Shown here piece by piece: positions 8,990-15,474 of a stretch of DNA of 44,424 nucleotides; the stretch's first letter is position 1; each line of letters opens with the position of its first letter. The stretch is from Rhodopseudomonas sp. (lineage in GTDB: Bacteria; Pseudomonadota; Alphaproteobacteria; Rhizobiales; Xanthobacteraceae), in NCBI GenBank assembly GCA_016124795.1, contig WGNB01000032.1, positions 1 through 44,424 of the forward strand, given 5' to 3'. Under the pieces are notes generated by a model that was given only the letters and a program-made list of their open reading frames with translations, was not told the origin of the DNA and ran no database searches. A program made the translations under genes and the position numbers.

Positions 8990-9018
8990 TTGACAGGCTT
9001 GCCTCGCCCTTCCTATAC
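8990..9018 (+). promoter_or_regulatory. Sigma-70 promoter of the tRNA-Met gene
   Basis: A perfect -35 TTGACA (8990-8995) and a -10 CTATAC (9013-9018) are separated by 17 bases. The tRNA begins 53 bases downstream. Such a near-consensus promoter is usual for stable RNA genes in alphaproteobacteria. Confidence 0.75.
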
Positions 9019-9071
9019 CCGCGCATCCTGATGGATGCCGCAGGCCCGCCTGCGGTGTTGCCGGGATCGGT

Positions 9072-9148
9072 GGCGGGGTAGCTCAGTTGGTTAGAGCGGC
9101 GGAATCATAATCCGTAGGTCGGGGGTTCAAATCCCTCCCCCGCTACCA
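9072..9148 (+). tRNA. tRNA-Met (CAT), elongator type
   Basis: A 77-base tRNA with encoded CCA. The acceptor stem GGCGGGG pairs with CCCCGCT (one G-U). The D arm contains GCTCAGTTGGTTAGAGC. The anticodon loop ATCATAA gives anticodon CAT, and the T arm has GGTTCAAATCC. A CAT anticodon also occurs in initiator tRNA-Met and lysidine-modified tRNA-Ile. The paired first position and lack of the initiator's three-GC anticodon stem argue against initiator, and the acceptor and T-stem sequence matches elongator Met of Hyphomicrobiales better than tRNA-Ile2. Confidence 0.92.
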
Positions 9149-9276
9149 AAGCAACGCAGATCATTGAAATCATGCGATTTGGTGTTCGGCGGCGCGGCAT
9201 TGGCGCGGGCCGACGGTCGATGCGCGGGCAAAGGTCGCCGGACGCGCCAGCTGTCAGTCCCGGATGTCCGTGTCGC

Positions 9277-9822
9277 TTAGCCAAGCCAGACGCGCCGCGC
9301 CTGATCGACGATCTGGGCGACGCGGGCTTCCACTTCCTCCGCCGTGATCGACGACACCGGATGGTCGACCACCACCGGTTTGAGCCCCGGCATGCCGATG
9401 GCCTGGCGCGTCAGTTCGGTCTCGTGGACGAATTCGGTGGTGATGATGGCGGCCGCGGGCACGCCCATGCGCTCCAGCGCGACCGCGTCGCGGACGCAGC
9501 ACGAGCAGCACGAGCCGCAATCGCCGATCGCGGTCAGCACGATGTCGTTCTCCCGCGCGATCTTCTCCAGCAACTCGGGGGCGGCGTCCTTGGAGAAATT
9601 GTGTTTGACGTAATAATTCACCGCCGCGAAGCCGGCATCGGCAAGCGCGGCTTGCGAACCGCGCAGCAGCTTGTTGGCGTTCCATTTAGAGTTGTCGAGG
9701 ATGCCAAGCCGCAGGCCGGCCAGCGCCCTGACGCGCGGTGCGATCGGGTCGGACTGGCTCGCGACCTGGCCGCGCGGATCGTAGACATAGGCGGTGCGTT
9801 CGAGGTTGCGCTGGATGTTCAT
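9277..9822 (-). CDS. UGSC-family protein, cysteine form
   Basis: A 181-residue protein of the UGSC family, named for a U-G-S-C motif first noticed in selenoprotein surveys. In this copy the selenocysteine position is an ordinary Cys: Cys102-Gly-Ser-Cys105, followed by Cys106, Ser107, Cys108 and Cys109 (DCGSCCSCC). The fold looks Rossmann-like, with alternating strands and helices (LRLGILDNSKWNANKLL, DIVLTAIGDCGS, AAAIITTEFV). The CxxC arrangement suggests a thiol redox or metal/sulfur-handling site. It starts with ATG at 9822 after AGAGGA. It lies 70 bases downstream of the 371-residue gene on the same strand, so the two are probably co-transcribed. The biochemical reaction of this family is not established to my knowledge. 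Confidence 0.8.
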   Translation of the reverse strand: MNIQRNLERTAYVYDPRGQVASQSDPIAPRVRALAGLRLGILDNSKWNANKLLRGSQAALADAGFAAVNYYVKHNFSKDAAPELLEKIARENDIVLTAIGDCGSCCSCCVRDAVALERMGVPAAAIITTEFVHETELTRQAIGMPGLKPVVVDHPVSSITAEEVEARVAQIVDQARRVWLG

Positions 9823-9892
9823 CGGAGGGTTCCTCTTTCTTCGCGCGTATTCTTTGCCGAATGCCGGTTGCGGCTAGTCGGGATCGTGCGGA

Positions 9893-11008
9893 TCAGATGG
9901 TGCAACTGCCGTCGGTGCAGGTCTCGTCGACAGGCATGGCGCCGCCGTCGATGGCGCGCAGCACCGGCGAACTCATGTGTCCCCAGCCCGGAATGAAGGC
10001 CGAGAAGCGGCCGGCATGGCCGCCCATGACGAACAGGTGAATGAGATCGGGCGAAGCGACGATCGGAATGAAGCTGTCCGGCTCTCGTTTGTACCATTTC
10101 GGCAGATTGCGGTTATAGACCTTGCCGTAGCGATGGCCGCGCGAATGTTTGGCGAAGAGATTGCCGGCATGCATCGCCAGGTAGTTCTTGACGTCGGCGC
10201 GGTTCCAGCCGGCCTTGGCGATGGTGCGGGCGTGCTCGAGTCCCAGCACGACCGCGCAATGGCCGCTGAGCACCGAAGTGTTGGACGCGATCGTGCTCAT
10301 GGCCGACACCATGGTGTCCAGAATGCCTTCCGGGTCGTTGCAGATATGGTCGGTGACGCTGTGCGGGGCTTCCGCGGCCATCGTAAACACCGTCGAATCG
10401 GTGGCGGCGAAGCCCTGCTCGACGTGATAGGGCGCCAGCGGCGAATCCGCTTCGTTCTCGGCGACGCAATAAGTGTATTTCGACGGGTTACCGAGCGTGC
10501 TCTTGTCGAGGTCGGGCGGAAAGCCGCCGCCGACGTTGAGCATGATCAGCCGCACCGCGCGGCCGATCGTGGCATTGGCGCGGTTGCCGGAGCCGAAGCA
10601 GTTGGCGCCGCCGTTCATGCCGACCTGCTTCGCCAGCGGTCCGTTGACCACGATCAGGGGCGAGGCCATGTGGGTGGTCGCCTGCACGCCGTTGAGGTTG
10701 AAGGCGCGGTCGGTCAGGGCCAGCATCGCGGCGCGCACGATCGGCGCATAATCCGGCTTGCAGCCGGCCATCACCATGTTGATCGCCAGCACCTCTCGGG
10801 TCAGCAGGCCCCAGCGCGGCGCGACCTTGCATTCGACGAAGGCGGGATCGCCGCCGAGCGCGGCGACGCAGGCCGCGACTTTTTCGGGCGTCGGCGGCAC
10901 CACCGGCAGGCCGTCGGTCCAGCCGCGCTCGTAATAAAGCTCGATCAGATCGGCGTGGCTGTCGGCGACTTCCAGTGCGTCGCGCTCGAGCTGTTGCAGG
11001 GCCGTCAT
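9893..11008 (-). CDS. Uncharacterised protein with TDGLPVVPPT motif and Cys-containing tail
   Basis: A 371-residue protein with no function I can name. It has no signal peptide or membrane segment. Near the N-terminus is the striking WTDGLPVVPPTPEKV, which I associate with proteins found beside UGSC-family genes, though I cannot verify that association here. A Gly/Asn-rich block follows (VGMNGGANCFGSGNRANATIGRA). The protein ends in a flexible tail, ETCTDGSCTI, with two cysteines five residues apart, three residues from the end. Such a tail can act as a swinging redox pair, as in thioredoxin-reductase-like systems; that is inference. It starts at ATG 11008. Upstream by 106 bases on the same strand is a LysR gene, and downstream by 70 bases is the UGSC gene. 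Confidence 0.72.
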   Translation of the reverse strand: MTALQQLERDALEVADSHADLIELYYERGWTDGLPVVPPTPEKVAACVAALGGDPAFVECKVAPRWGLLTREVLAINMVMAGCKPDYAPIVRAAMLALTDRAFNLNGVQATTHMASPLIVVNGPLAKQVGMNGGANCFGSGNRANATIGRAVRLIMLNVGGGFPPDLDKSTLGNPSKYTYCVAENEADSPLAPYHVEQGFAATDSTVFTMAAEAPHSVTDHICNDPEGILDTMVSAMSTIASNTSVLSGHCAVVLGLEHARTIAKAGWNRADVKNYLAMHAGNLFAKHSRGHRYGKVYNRNLPKWYKREPDSFIPIVASPDLIHLFVMGGHAGRFSAFIPGWGHMSSPVLRAIDGGAMPVDETCTDGSCTI

Positions 11009-11114
11009 GGCGGTTCTCCCGTTTGGCGCTTCTTCCCTTAGTTGTGGGAAGCATAACGCCGCCGGGGTTTATGCCAAGGAAATTCTGATAGCGGCGATTA
11101 TTGCACCAAGCGTA

Positions 11115-12023
11115 TTAATCGCGGAACCGTCGCCGCAGCAAAGCCAGCATGCCGCTCGCCGCCGGCGACAAGCTGCGGTCGCGCAGGGTGATGACGCCGA
11201 GTTCGCGGCGCAAGGCCGGCGCGGTCAAGGGCCGCGCCACCAGCCCGAGATGCGGCAGGTCGGTCGCGACGCTGCCCGGCACGATGGCGAGCCCGACGCC
11301 GGCCCGCACCAGGCTCATCGTCGTGGCGAACTGGGTGACGGTGACGGCATGGCGTAGTGCGATGCCGGCATGGGCTGCGGCCGCGTCGATGATCCGGCGG
11401 GTTCGCGATTCATTGGGCAGCGAGACCAGCGCGATGCCGTCGAGCGCGGCGAGCGGCAGGGTCCGGCGCTTCGCCAGCGGATGATGCTTCGGCAACACGA
11501 CGGTGAAAGCCTCGCGGCCGAGCGCGATGGCGTCGATGCCGTCGGGCAGGTCCTCGACATAGCTGATGCCGAAATCGGCAAGACCCGAGCGGACGTCTTC
11601 CAGCACGGTACCGTGCACGCCTTCACGGATATGAAGTTCGATGCCCGGCCGGTCCTTGCGGTAGAGCGCGGCGATGCGCGGCAGCGTGCCGTTGGCGACC
11701 GACATGATCGACGAGACGATGACCTGGCCGCGCTGTTCGTCGGCGATCTCGCGCATGCTGCGCACGGTGATGCGCAAGTCGTTGAGCATGCGTTCGGCGA
11801 CGGCGATGAATTCGCGACCGGCGGCAGTGATGTGCACCCGCCGCGTCGAGCGTTCGAACAGCGCGACGCCGAGCAGATGTTCGACCCGTTTGATGGTGCG
11901 GGTCAGCGCTGGCTGCGAGGTCTTCATCAAGGCCGCGGCGGCGATGAAGCTGCCGTAATCGGCGACCGCGAGCACGGCCTGCAATTGCCGCGCGGTCAGG
12001 TCCGGAATGGGGGCGGGCGGCAT
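11115..12023 (-). CDS. LysR-family transcriptional regulator
   Basis: A 302-residue LysR regulator. The N-terminal winged helix-turn-helix is plain (LTARQLQAVLAVADYGSF, TSQPALTRTIKRVEHLLG, LFERSTRRVHIT). The effector-binding domain spans about residues 90-300. It is transcribed in the same direction as the 371-residue and UGSC genes and divergently from the GlcG/HbpS-like gene. The 267-base divergent region carries an extended inverted repeat. LysR proteins usually control the divergent gene and their own expression, so the HbpS-like gene is the likeliest target and the downstream pair a second candidate. The effector is unknown. Confidence 0.92.
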   Translation of the reverse strand: MPPAPIPDLTARQLQAVLAVADYGSFIAAAALMKTSQPALTRTIKRVEHLLGVALFERSTRRVHITAAGREFIAVAERMLNDLRITVRSMREIADEQRGQVIVSSIMSVANGTLPRIAALYRKDRPGIELHIREGVHGTVLEDVRSGLADFGISYVEDLPDGIDAIALGREAFTVVLPKHHPLAKRRTLPLAALDGIALVSLPNESRTRRIIDAAAAHAGIALRHAVTVTQFATTMSLVRAGVGLAIVPGSVATDLPHLGLVARPLTAPALRRELGVITLRDRSLSPAASGMLALLRRRFRD

Positions 12024-12216
12024 GAGGCGGCGTGCTGCGTTGGGAGCGAATGAAACGGGTTAGAGACTGGCGCGGATTTCGCTTATTGAAAGACCGGCGC
12101 TTTGTGGCGCTGCCACTATAAACGTGCAGCGCCGGATCCGGTCATTTGTTTATACGCGCACGAACGTGAATCCCATTGCGTGCCCATCGGCGCGCGCCCA
12201 TACTTTGATGGTATCG

Positions 12217-12245
12217 CGTGCTATCTCACATCGTGGGATAGCGCG
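12217..12245. promoter_or_regulatory. Extended inverted repeat in the LysR-hbpS-like divergent region
   Basis: Thirteen pairs (12217-12229 with 12233-12245) flank a 3-base centre; eleven are Watson-Crick and two are T-G. The core is CTATCTCAC-atc-GTGGGATAG. It ends 45 bases before the ATG of the secreted heme-binding-like gene. As DNA it would suit a dimeric regulator such as the adjacent LysR; as RNA it could form a leader hairpin closed by a 3-base loop. Confidence 0.45.
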
Positions 12246-12290
12246 TCGAAACCGAAGACGTCATAAAAAATCAAATCCGGGAGGAACTAG

Positions 12291-12779
12291 ATGCGTTACG
12301 TCGTACTCGCGTCGGCGCTGCTTGGCGCCGGTTGGCTGGCTGTCGCGCCGGCTCAGGCGCAGCAGAAGCCGCTGCCCTATGGCACGCCGATCACCTTGAA
12401 GCAGGCCGAGACCATTGCCGCGGCGGCGCGCGCGCAATCGACCAAGATGGGAATCGAAGAGTCGATCGCGATCGTCGAGCCGACCGGCGAACTGGTCTAT
12501 TTCGCCAAGATGGATGACACGCAATACGGCTCCACACTGGTCGCGATGAACAAGGCGGTTTCCACCGCGCAGTTTCGCCGGCCGACCAAAGTGTTCCACG
12601 ATCTGATCGCGAAGGGCGCCGACTTCAACTATCTGCTGCAATTGGGCAAGGCCAATTCGGTGCCGGGCGGTCTGCTGGTGGTGTCCGGCGGCAAGATCAT
12701 TGGCGCGGTCGGCTGCTCTGGCGGCACCGGCGCCGAGGATATCGAGATCTGTCAGGCCGGTCTCAACGCATTGAAATAG
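12291..12779 (+). CDS. Secreted GlcG/HbpS-like (DUF336) protein
   Basis: A 162-residue protein of the GlcG/HbpS family (DUF336), some members of which bind heme or act with glycolate or diol utilisation. A signal peptide is clear (LASALLGAGWLAVAPAQAQ, probable cleavage after AQA). The mature protein shows the family core: LKQAETIAAAARAQ, SIAIVEPTGELVYFAKMDD, KAVSTAQFRRPT and GGLLVVSGGKIIGAVGCSGG. The C-terminal half has a possible disulfide pair (Cys in AVGCSGG and in EICQAG). ATG at 12291 follows GGGAGGAACTAG, a strong ribosome binding site. It is divergent from LysR and ends in a strong hairpin, so it is a single-gene transcript. Ligand unknown. Confidence 0.87.
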   Translation: MRYVVLASALLGAGWLAVAPAQAQQKPLPYGTPITLKQAETIAAAARAQSTKMGIEESIAIVEPTGELVYFAKMDDTQYGSTLVAMNKAVSTAQFRRPTKVFHDLIAKGADFNYLLQLGKANSVPGGLLVVSGGKIIGAVGCSGGTGAEDIEICQAGLNALK

Positions 12780-12795
12780 AATCGATGGTTCTCCG

Positions 12796-12819
12796 CCACG
12801 CGATCGGTTGATCGCGTGG
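12796..12819 (+). terminator. Hairpin terminator after the HbpS-like gene
   Basis: A perfect 10-bp stem (CCACGCGATC with GATCGCGTGG) has a GGTT tetraloop and begins 17 bases past the stop codon. No strong T-run follows, but the stem is stable and well placed. Confidence 0.6.
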
Positions 12820-13165
12820 TGGTCCTCGGCGCGGCGAGAGCCATCGCCGGCGCAACATTATTGCAAAGACTTTGGTATGACGGCGGCGTGAATTTAGGGA
12901 TTCGGCGCCAATTGACGTCCGGTCACGCCAATTTCGACGTCATTTCCGGTTCACAGCCGCGTGAGCGCCACGACACTTATACACAAATCCCCGTCGGTAT
13001 GGTTGCCCCGGCCATCCGGCGATGGAACAATCGCTTCCATTATTCGTATCCATCCCTAGATGTGATGGTGCATTCGCCCGCGAAGGACAATGCAAAGGGG
13101 CTGACCGTTTCGACCCGAACGATTGCTGGCGGGTTCTGCTTCAAATCTGGTGATGGAGACGAGTG
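12820..13165. other. Intergenic region upstream of egtB, no gene seen
   Basis: A 116-codon open frame crosses this stretch, but it has no ribosome binding site, no recognisable family and poor composition for this genome (scattered Trp, Asn and Tyr, and no alternating third-position GC bias). I treat the region as the egtB promoter and leader. I could not find a convincing -35/-10 pair. Confidence 0.4.
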
Positions 13166-14416
13166 ATGGCGCTGAGCGCGATTTCATCGACTGAGCGCGG
13201 CCCGGCCTTTGGCGCTTCGACCCGGACTCACTGGCGCGATGCTTTCCGTCGCGTTCGTGGCGAGACCGAGCGGCGGGCGTCGCATCTGTCGGCCGAGGAT
13301 CAGATCGTTCAATCGATGGCCGATGCGTCGCCGACCAAGTGGCATCGTGCCCATGTCACCTGGTTCTTCGAACAATTTCTGCTGGTGCCGAACGATCCCG
13401 GTTACAGGATTTACGACGAACGCTTTCCGTTCCTGTTCAATTCATATTATGTCGCCGCCGGGCCCCGTCATGCCCGCCCGCAACGCGGCCTGATCACGCG
13501 GCCGAATGGCGAGGAGGTTGCCGGCTATCGCGCCCATGTCGATGCCGCGGTCGAACGGCTGATCGAGACCGTCGCCGACGACAAGGCCGCCGAGGTGTTC
13601 TCGATTCTCGAGATCGGTCTGCATCACGAACAGCAGCATCAGGAATTGCTGCTCACCGATATCCTGCATGCCTTCGCGCAGAACCCGACGCATCCGGCCT
13701 ATGACGCCGACTGGCGGATGCCGCGTCGCGCCGCCGGTCCGCGCGCGGTCGACGGTTCCGCCTTTGTCGAAGTGCCGGCGGGGATTCAGGCCATCGGTCA
13801 TGATGGCAAGGGCTTCTGCTTCGACAACGAGACGCCGCGTCATGAGGCCCTCATTCCGAAGATGCGGATCGCGCGCGATCTCGTCAGCAATGCGCAGTGG
13901 CTGCAATTCATCGAGGCCGGCGGCTACAGCACGCCATCCCTGTGGTTGTCGGATGGCTGGGCCACGGTGCAGGCCGAAGGCTGGGAGGCGCCGGGCTATT
14001 GGCGTCAACAGGATGGAACCTGGCACGTCATGACGCTGGCGGGGCTGAGGCCGGTTGATCCTGCTCAGCCGGTAACGCATGTCAGCTATTACGAAGCGGA
14101 TGCCTTTGCCCGCTTTGCCGGTAAAGATCTACCGAGTGAGCAGGAATGGGAGGTAGCCGCGCGCGCCGGGCTGTTGAACGACGCCTTCGGGGTTGCTTGG
14201 CAGTGGACACGCAGTGCCTATCTGTCCTATCCGGGCTACCGCGCGGCCGAAGGAGCGCTCGGCGAATATAACGGCAAGTTCATGGTCAGCCAGATGGTGC
14301 TGCGGGGCTCGTCGTCGGCGACACCGGAAGGTCACGAACGCATCAGCTATCGCAATTTCTTTTATCCGCCGGCGCGCTGGCAGTTCAGCGGCTTGCGGCT
14401 CGCGGAATTTATCTGA
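13166..14416 (+). CDS. egtB: Ergothioneine biosynthesis sulfoxide synthase EgtB
   Basis: A 416-residue EgtB, the non-heme iron enzyme that joins a thiol donor to hercynine with O2 to give the sulfoxide intermediate of ergothioneine. The N-terminal DinB-like domain has PTKWHRAHVTWFFEQF and the iron-site helix with HHEQQHQELLLTD. The C-terminal half is a formylglycine-generating-enzyme-like domain (FVEVPAGIQAIGHDG, FDNETPRHEAL, PVTHVSYYEADAFARFAG, EQEWEVAARAG, ending in YRNFFYPPARWQFSGLRLA). Length is normal. I chose ATG at 13166, preceded by GGAGACGAG, over the overlapping GTG at 13163. egtD follows after 65 bases. egtA, egtC and egtE are not in the window, so the thiol donor (cysteine or gamma-glutamylcysteine) cannot be told from context. 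Confidence 0.95.
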   Translation: MALSAISSTERGPAFGASTRTHWRDAFRRVRGETERRASHLSAEDQIVQSMADASPTKWHRAHVTWFFEQFLLVPNDPGYRIYDERFPFLFNSYYVAAGPRHARPQRGLITRPNGEEVAGYRAHVDAAVERLIETVADDKAAEVFSILEIGLHHEQQHQELLLTDILHAFAQNPTHPAYDADWRMPRRAAGPRAVDGSAFVEVPAGIQAIGHDGKGFCFDNETPRHEALIPKMRIARDLVSNAQWLQFIEAGGYSTPSLWLSDGWATVQAEGWEAPGYWRQQDGTWHVMTLAGLRPVDPAQPVTHVSYYEADAFARFAGKDLPSEQEWEVAARAGLLNDAFGVAWQWTRSAYLSYPGYRAAEGALGEYNGKFMVSQMVLRGSSSATPEGHERISYRNFFYPPARWQFSGLRLAEFI

Positions 14417-14481
14417 CGGCGGTCCATCGACAGGCGACCGTCGCCCGAAGTCCTGAAGCCAAGTGGAAGTAAGAGGTTCTT

Positions 14482-15474
14482 ATGGTTGCGCTTGCTCGCT
14501 CGACAGTCATGCCGTCGCCGTCCGACGAGACGTCGGAATTCGCAGTCGATGTGCTGAAAGGTTTGAGTGCGACCCGCAAACGGGTGTCGCCGAAGTATTT
14601 CTATGACGCCGTCGGCTCGCAATTGTTCGATCAGATTACCGAACAACCGGAATATTACCCGACGCGCTGCGAGATGCGTATTCTTCAGGATAACGCGGCC
14701 GACATCGTCAAGCTTATTCCGGAAGGCGCGGCGTTGGTCGAATTCGGTTCGGGCTCGAACAAGAAAGCGCGCATTCTGCTCAAGAGCGCACCGCACCTTG
14801 CGGCCTATGTGCCGGTCGATATTTGCGGCGAAATGGTCGAACAGGAAGCCGCCGAACTGCGGCCCGACTTCCCCGGTCTGAATATTCATCCGGTGACCGC
14901 CGATTTCACCCAGGAATTCGAACTGCCGGAAGAAGCCCGCAATGCGCCGGCGCGGATCGGCCTGTTTCCCGGTTCCACCATCGGCAATTTCGAGCCGCAT
15001 GAGGCTGCCGCTTTCCTGCGTAACGCCGCCAAGATTCTCGGACCCAATTCGAAGCTCATCATCGGCGCCGACCTGGTGAAGCCGGCCGAGGTGCTTAACG
15101 CCGCTTATAACGACGCGGCCGGCGTCACCGCCCGGTTCAACCTCAATGTGCTGGTGCGGATGAACCGCGAGCTCGGCGCGACCTTCGATCTCGACACTTT
15201 CGAGCATCACGCCTTCTTCAACCGCGAACGCAATCGCATCGAGATGCATCTGGCCAGCCTGAAGCGGCAGAAGGTCAAGGTCGCGGGCGAATGTTTCGAG
15301 TTCCGCGCCGGCGAGACCATCCATACCGAGAGCAGCTATAAATATTCGGTCGAGTCGCTGGGCGCCCTGGCGCGTGGCGTCGGCTGGGCCCCGTCCGGTG
15401 TCTGGATGGACGAGGACAAATATTTCTCGATCCAGGCCTTCACGCTCACCGAGGCCGGCAGCCCGAAGCCCTGA
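14482..15474 (+). CDS. egtD: L-histidine N-alpha-methyltransferase EgtD
   Basis: A 330-residue EgtD, which trimethylates histidine with three SAM molecules to make hercynine, the substrate of EgtB. Family markers are KYFYDAVGSQLFDQITEQPEYYPTR (split here as KYFYDAVGSQLFDQI and PEYYPTR), the SAM loop FGSGSNKKARILL, FPGSTIGNFEP and the C-terminal SYKYSVESL. Length matches the family. ATG at 14482 follows AAGAGG. It lies 65 bases after egtB and ends with a strong hairpin, so egtBD is one operon. Product confidence is high because both core enzymes occur together. Confidence 0.95.
   Translation: MVALARSTVMPSPSDETSEFAVDVLKGLSATRKRVSPKYFYDAVGSQLFDQITEQPEYYPTRCEMRILQDNAADIVKLIPEGAALVEFGSGSNKKARILLKSAPHLAAYVPVDICGEMVEQEAAELRPDFPGLNIHPVTADFTQEFELPEEARNAPARIGLFPGSTIGNFEPHEAAAFLRNAAKILGPNSKLIIGADLVKPAEVLNAAYNDAAGVTARFNLNVLVRMNRELGATFDLDTFEHHAFFNRERNRIEMHLASLKRQKVKVAGECFEFRAGETIHTESSYKYSVESLGALARGVGWAPSGVWMDEDKYFSIQAFTLTEAGSPKP

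Follow-up and report, generated by a model that had tools for sequence, protein, structure and literature searches.

The window analysed here is a 44,424-nucleotide stretch of a Rhodopseudomonas sp. genome (contig WGNB01000032.1) that carries, side by side on the minus strand, the genes for a TDGLPVVPPT protein (hereafter T) and for a protein of the UGSC family (hereafter U; Table 1). The two genes accompany each other across bacterial phyla and in haloarchaea, and T and U are very probably one redox enzyme. The reading we prefer, to which we give a probability of roughly 55%, is a two-subunit thioredoxin-dependent seleno/thiol reductase working in catabolic cassettes, with a cysteine tail on T re-reducing U in the clade of the window. 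An initial annotation had assigned U to the UGSC family and suggested that it acts together with T in a possibly undescribed module for electron or sulfur transfer.

T and U occur together across genomes

Searches with T and with U in 289 genomes of the class and 398 of the phylum (G066 and the genome of the window, G000, being in both samples) found the two proteins in identical sets of genomes, 28 in the class and five in the phylum sample. At loci picked by T alone, 80 from GTDB (the best of 588 stretches) and 12 plasmid records out of 24 that matched, a U gene of the same strand lay no more than 500 nt from the T profile match for 73 of 88 and 13 of 14 T copies, respectively. Of 40 class regions selected for UGSC instead (covering about 43 of 71 listed UGSC places), 39, all but L073, contained T, and U was no more than 500 nt from 41 of the 48 T copies in them; in four same-genus loci found by U, T stood beside it every time. 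Many of the more distant T copies are additional ones (the second or third) of clusters that contain U, and in one class genome (G065) the two genes lie on separate contigs. Both gene orders are found, single genomes may hold several pairs, and 17 copies (6 class, 3 plasmid, 8 GTDB) are in-frame fusions of T and U. The hosts span Alpha- and Betaproteobacteria, Mycobacterium, Arthrobacter, Chloroflexi, Rokubacteria, Sporomusa, Vibrio and haloarchaea. This shared occurrence and adjacency over phyla leads us to reject a pairing peculiar to the present genome and, together with the natural fusions and a confident joint model (below), strongly supports the suggestion that T and U act together.

For evolutionary comparison 124 pairs were retained, after removal of L123 (the same contig as L061, and hence also left out of the tail count), pairs separated by over 600 nt, T cores shorter than 240 aa and U proteins without [UC]G[SA][CS]; the tree was built with FastTree on T cores without the tail. 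Distances among T proteins correlate with those among U proteins (r 0.85), the maximum in 500 permutations being 0.09, a correlation that common descent alone would also give. In five loci (L091, L095, L096, L183, L191) one UGSC gene is found with two or three different T genes in a row, an arrangement that suggests a heteromeric T.

The Parapusillimonas T and U, modelled as one chain through the stop of T, gave a predicted local distance difference test (pLDDT) score of 91.5 and a predicted TM-score (pTM) of 0.91, and the model implies a defined mutual placement of the two proteins. Its U part aligns with common Rossmann-like alpha/beta folds; thioredoxin and GrdB folds were not among the 50 U matches listed, and neither is thereby excluded. 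A solved relative was sought by sequence and rejected, the matches being weak and due to chance. For T, Foldseek ranked class I fumarate hydratases highest (E 1.2e-4 over 368 columns), with cyclic amide hydrolases next. These matches, and a Cys83 kept in 98% of the T alignment, could indicate that T itself, as a lyase or hydrolase of class I fumarase-like or Toblerone-like fold, does the chemistry while U and the tail keep its cysteine or cofactor reduced. We regard this as improbable. The fold matches of T (fumarase class I, Toblerone hydrolases, chorismate mutase-like) are all weak, with no convincing partner among them.

U is a UGSC protein with cysteine at the selenocysteine site

Membership of U in the UGSC family is confirmed by scores above cut-off for both PF24696 (207.1 bits, cut-off 25) and NF041046 (159.1 bits, cut-off 125), and by the [UC]GSC motif of the family, which is CGSC at residues 102-105. 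The Cys102-Gly-Ser-Cys105 motif had been described as followed by two more cysteines; the motif stands, and three follow it (C106, C108, C109). The positions of both genes, the gap between them and the end of T agree with the open reading frames (ORFs) and sequence as first given. In the 124 paired U proteins position 102 is conserved in 100% and C105 in 98%, figures that are partly built in by the motif used for selection. With the tail counts given below, they speak for more than coincidence. T drew no match from Pfam at E 0.001 or from NCBIfam at E 0.1; a Pfam scan of 49 T members gave scattered weak matches only, and a known Pfam family for T was therefore rejected. Its conserved core comprises D32, NxVMAGC83, R150 and E184.

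The relatives of U do carry selenocysteine (Sec) in place of Cys102, as the annotation had it: position 102 is TGA in 102 of the 124 pairs and Cys in 22. A Blastococcus UGSC gene adjoining T has an in-frame TAG exactly at the Sec position (L175, 7687-7689), and excerpts of PMC5330540 describe for Geodermatophilaceae UGSC selenoproteins and a tRNA-Sec whose anticodon is CUA. Of 18 genomes searched for SelB, 14 had a score above cut-off. SelB did not pass the cut-off in the genome of the window (Cys form, 95% complete), in G304 (Cys form) or in G291, which has no UGSC protein; Cys102 in the window is thus consistent with a genome without Sec decoding. G246 combines the Cys form with SelB. SelB or SelB-like genes lie near T and U in L112, L121 and L132 and at G057:C1:741575-743452, so that the pair may travel with the Sec machinery.

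The Sec segment of U resembles selenoprotein B of glycine and proline reductases

Among 43 U members, NCBIfam matches were to GrdB in 15, PrdB in 13 and GrdF in 9. Profile alignment of U with GrdB/PrdB (hhalign) gave a probability of 71% and a score of 42.1, against 28.0 for the best of 34 controls, with the Sec columns aligned. In GrdB/PrdB (PF07355, TIGR01917, TIGR04483) as in U, the aligned segment follows a UxxC(xxC) pattern, CGSCCSC in the U of the window; for GrdB the motif is given as UxxCxxC (PMC13188914, PMC6778437, in excerpt). These profile comparisons support a remote relationship between the Sec segment of U and GrdB/PrdB. The resemblance does not extend to T, which matches none of the partner subunits of these systems: the pyruvoyl subunit GrdE/PrdA was absent from the Pfam matches (E <= 1) of the 49 T members, and a relationship of T to GrdB-like proteins was rejected (hhalign probability 0.2%). 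The hosts differ as well, with T-U in Mycobacterium, Alcaligenaceae and haloarchaea. Alphaproteobacterial genomes with the pair also hold GrdB/PrdB-like selenoproteins with UPxC or UPxD motifs (L197-L208), their class name being inferred from named relatives; the member shown scores 86.5 bits with PrdB, for which the cut-off is 300.

A cysteine tail on T in the clade of the window

The C-terminal end CxxGxCx[LIV] is kept in all 21 T proteins of the clade of the window, whose U partners are 13 Sec and eight Cys forms. It follows a linker of 15-21 residues from PVL/PVM that varies in sequence, requires one change on the T tree (support 100), and was found in none of 1108 neighbouring ORFs, a single one of which has any CX4C end. 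In 17 other T proteins the end is CxDC, for which three changes are needed, and their U partners read UGSCS[ST]CS in 17 of 17. Altogether, U carries one more Cys, at position 7 or 8 of the motif, for 38 of 38 tailed T proteins, compared with 28 of the 86 untailed. The association is suggestive at the level of sequence, with three independent pairs only on the tree, and is not significant. Since a Cys tail is absent from these 86 of the 124, a mechanism built on it cannot hold for T-U pairs in general, and the tail is an add-on.

The end of T, CTDGSCTI, closely recalls that of Escherichia coli NrdA, CESGACKI, a class Ia ribonucleotide reductase (RNR). In class I RNR a disordered C-terminal Cys pair is reduced by thioredoxin or glutaredoxin and then re-reduces the active site, and the tails are CXXC in most and CXXXXC in a minority such as E. 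coli (PMC5704485, PMC9669993, in excerpt). Likewise, both versions occur in T, on an apparently unrelated protein, and the T tail falls in a low-confidence part of the models (pLDDT <50 for residues 365-371 of T). Unlike in RNR, its target would sit on another subunit. No RNR family was found for T in Pfam, including the scan of the 49 members, and the T profile has no sequence match in the PDB; the likeness to NrdA is probably convergent. The tail might instead be a structural disulfide or metal site. In line with this, no docking was seen, the joint model dropping below pLDDT 50 near the tail and beyond it (residues 352-356 and 363-378), where an artificial linker also follows the tail. A strict CxxGxCx[LIV] end behind a variable linker fits a mobile arm, and we consider a structural role improbable.

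Neighbouring genes point to catabolism and thioredoxin

Neighbours were surveyed in 137 loci, some of them overlapping, and named by BLAST to annotated plasmid genes. Among them were CaiB CoA-transferase (23), the binding protein of tripartite tricarboxylate transporters (TTT; 21), short-chain dehydrogenases/reductases (17), LLM oxidoreductases (16), an ATP-binding cassette ATPase (13), a LysR regulator of the same cluster as that of the window (12) and TrxB (8). CaiB directly follows U on the same strand in 8 of 137 UGSC entries. TrxB adjoins the pair or lies a few genes away in L095, L097, L100, L105, L109, L110, L120 and L183. Six of these proteins were compared with TIGR01292 and scored above its cut-off in L105, L110 and L120 and below it in L095, L100 and L183; the identity of TrxB comes from the record annotation in L109 and from BLAST in L097. 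In Arthrobacter the gene order is trxB-trxA-T-U. The glycine reductase operon also carries trx genes. A thioredoxin link of T-U is supported, and thioredoxin is a participant in glycine reductase too (PMC13188914, in excerpt).

The same neighbours bear on two other explanations. U could be a general thiol-disulfide oxidoreductase or peroxidase with T as its client or scaffold, the pair being protective, not catabolic; its UxxC motif and the TrxB/TrxA neighbours agree with this, and excerpts of PMC2398784 and PMC13188914 list UGSC with a supposed thioredoxin-like fold and a redox role. The recurrence of CaiB, TTT and LLM genes around the pair argues for catabolism, however, as do the several pairs per genome, the Rossmann-like model of U, and the rank of GrdB and PrdB as its most frequent matches after UGSC itself, so that we find a protective pair unlikely. 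A relay of sulfur or selenium, with persulfide transfer between U and the tail of T, would make use of the reactive Cys/Sec of U and the Cys pair of T, and the Paracoccus copy has genes for cysteine desulfurase, TusA and DsrE nearby. Such a sulfur-gene context was seen in one of 11 annotated plasmid regions (L108 being without annotation), while TrxB recurs, and the tail is missing from the 86 T proteins noted above; a relay is very unlikely. A redox role finds support in the Sec/Cys exchange, the TrxB/TrxA neighbours and the NrdA-like tail; sulfur transfer, one of the two transfers first proposed, has next to nothing in its favour.

Genes for aconitase X are found near T and U in L127 and, accompanied by DUF126, in L113 and L115. 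In some bacteria this enzyme acts on hydroxyproline, and these neighbours are a possible hint at the substrate.

A proposed thioredoxin-dependent two-subunit reductase

In the reductase that we favour, T would dock on U, and its conserved core would probably shape the substrate site. Sec/Cys102 of U would supply the catalytic nucleophile, attacking a substrate held between the two subunits, with Cys105 as the resolving thiol, and the U centre would end each turnover oxidised. Thioredoxin would then restore U, in the clade of the window by way of the flexible CX4C tail of T; charged by TrxB and thioredoxin, the tail could pass electrons to C102/C105, perhaps via C108/C109. The cassette would be completed by a LysR regulator, uptake by tripartite ATP-independent periplasmic (TRAP) or TTT systems, and CaiB CoA-transferase. 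The sequences directly show the pairing, the fusions, Sec102 in relatives and a conserved tail; the reductase chemistry, the tail-to-U electron transfer and the role of T are what we infer from these comparisons.

Several observations weigh against such an enzyme. Seven of the 80 GTDB loci (L136, L142, L150, L151, L157, L173, L194) have no U in the DNA examined; L142 starts at the locus end, and four of the seven are Poribacteria with a short T. G301 is a misfit, with the TGA form yet no SelB over cut-off at 85% completeness, and C105 is replaced by Ser, with Sec102 kept, in the UGSC proteins of L162, L163 and L195. U scores far under the cut-offs of GrdB (14.7 vs 602.2 bits) and PrdB (14.5 vs 300 bits), and NapF is weakly matched by five of 43 U members, with a best E of 1.1e-4 vs 3.7e-4 for GrdB. 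TrxB near the pair is a minority feature, occurs at a tailed T in only two of eight cases (L105, L120), and is not found near the pair of the window. To these are added the weak fold matches of T, its many untailed members and the non-significant association of tail and extra Cys.

Locus context in Rhodopseudomonas

Table 1. Features of the T-U region, in window coordinates
Feature	Position	Strand	Basis
U: UGSC-family protein, Cys form, 181 aa	9277..9822	minus	PF24696 and NF041046 above cut-off; alignment
U codons 102-109, CGSCCSCC	9496..9519	minus	sequence; position derived manually from the gene start, 9822
Gap between T and U, 70 bases	9823..9892	minus	sequence
T: TDGLPVVPPT protein, 371 aa; conserved D32, N77, C83, T112, R150, E184	9893..11008	minus	ORF and alignment; no Pfam/NCBIfam family
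C-terminal tail of T, CTDGSCTI, residues 364-371; CX4C motif resembling the tail of class Ia NrdA	9896..9919	minus	sequence; low pLDDT in model
LysR-type regulator upstream of T	11115..12023	minus	PF03466, PF00126

The LysR-type protein is the likely regulator of the pair. In the stretch 9072-9172 a tRNA-Met(CAT) gene ends at 9148, where same-genus synteny stops; similarity to relatives ends at about 9150-9172 in seven of nine loci (L210-L212, L214-L216, L218) and at 9112 in L213 and L217. The T proteins of Roseovarius and Parapusillimonas are 74-75% identical to that of the window, and other subfamilies are found in the same genus (L101-L104). Taken together, these comparisons make the T-U region look like an acquired block beside the tRNA. 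In 9000-12400 this tRNA was the one Rfam match at the gathering cut-off. Further along (12291-15474) are an HbpS-like protein (PF03928) and two ORFs that by eye resemble EgtB and EgtD of ergothioneine synthesis.

Relation to earlier work and significance

U is a member of the UGSC family in which Cys replaces Sec102. Excerpts of an ocean survey (PMC2398784) place UGSC among the abundant prokaryotic selenoprotein families, and report from the Global Ocean Sampling data in 2008 a fusion with a conserved domain, 'Unknown_1', which may be T. The fusion is described in these excerpts without the pair, tail or mechanism considered here. The module is hence undescribed only in part: UGSC was a known selenoprotein family with a reported fusion. 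In the open-licence literature UGSC appears in surveys, reviews and lists only (including PMC9402790), and neither function nor partner is given in the excerpts of PMC2398784 (apart from the Unknown_1 fusion), PMC13188914, PMC9312934, PMC7539508, PMC7435645, PMC5330540 and PMC5029168. The redox selenoprotein without a given function in those surveys has here a near-constant partner.

In a wider and more tentative view, T-U may be an unrecognised and widespread, thioredoxin-linked seleno/thiol reductase of two subunits, at times fused, of the glycine/proline reductase kind outside Stickland fermenters, one branch of which would have gained independently an RNR-like swinging tail that reduces the centre of its partner. 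The partner, the thioredoxin link, the remote glycine/proline reductase kinship and the catabolic context make UGSC a testable enzyme. If true, the tail resembling that of NrdA would exemplify, by convergence, a C-terminus that recharges the active site of a partner protein.
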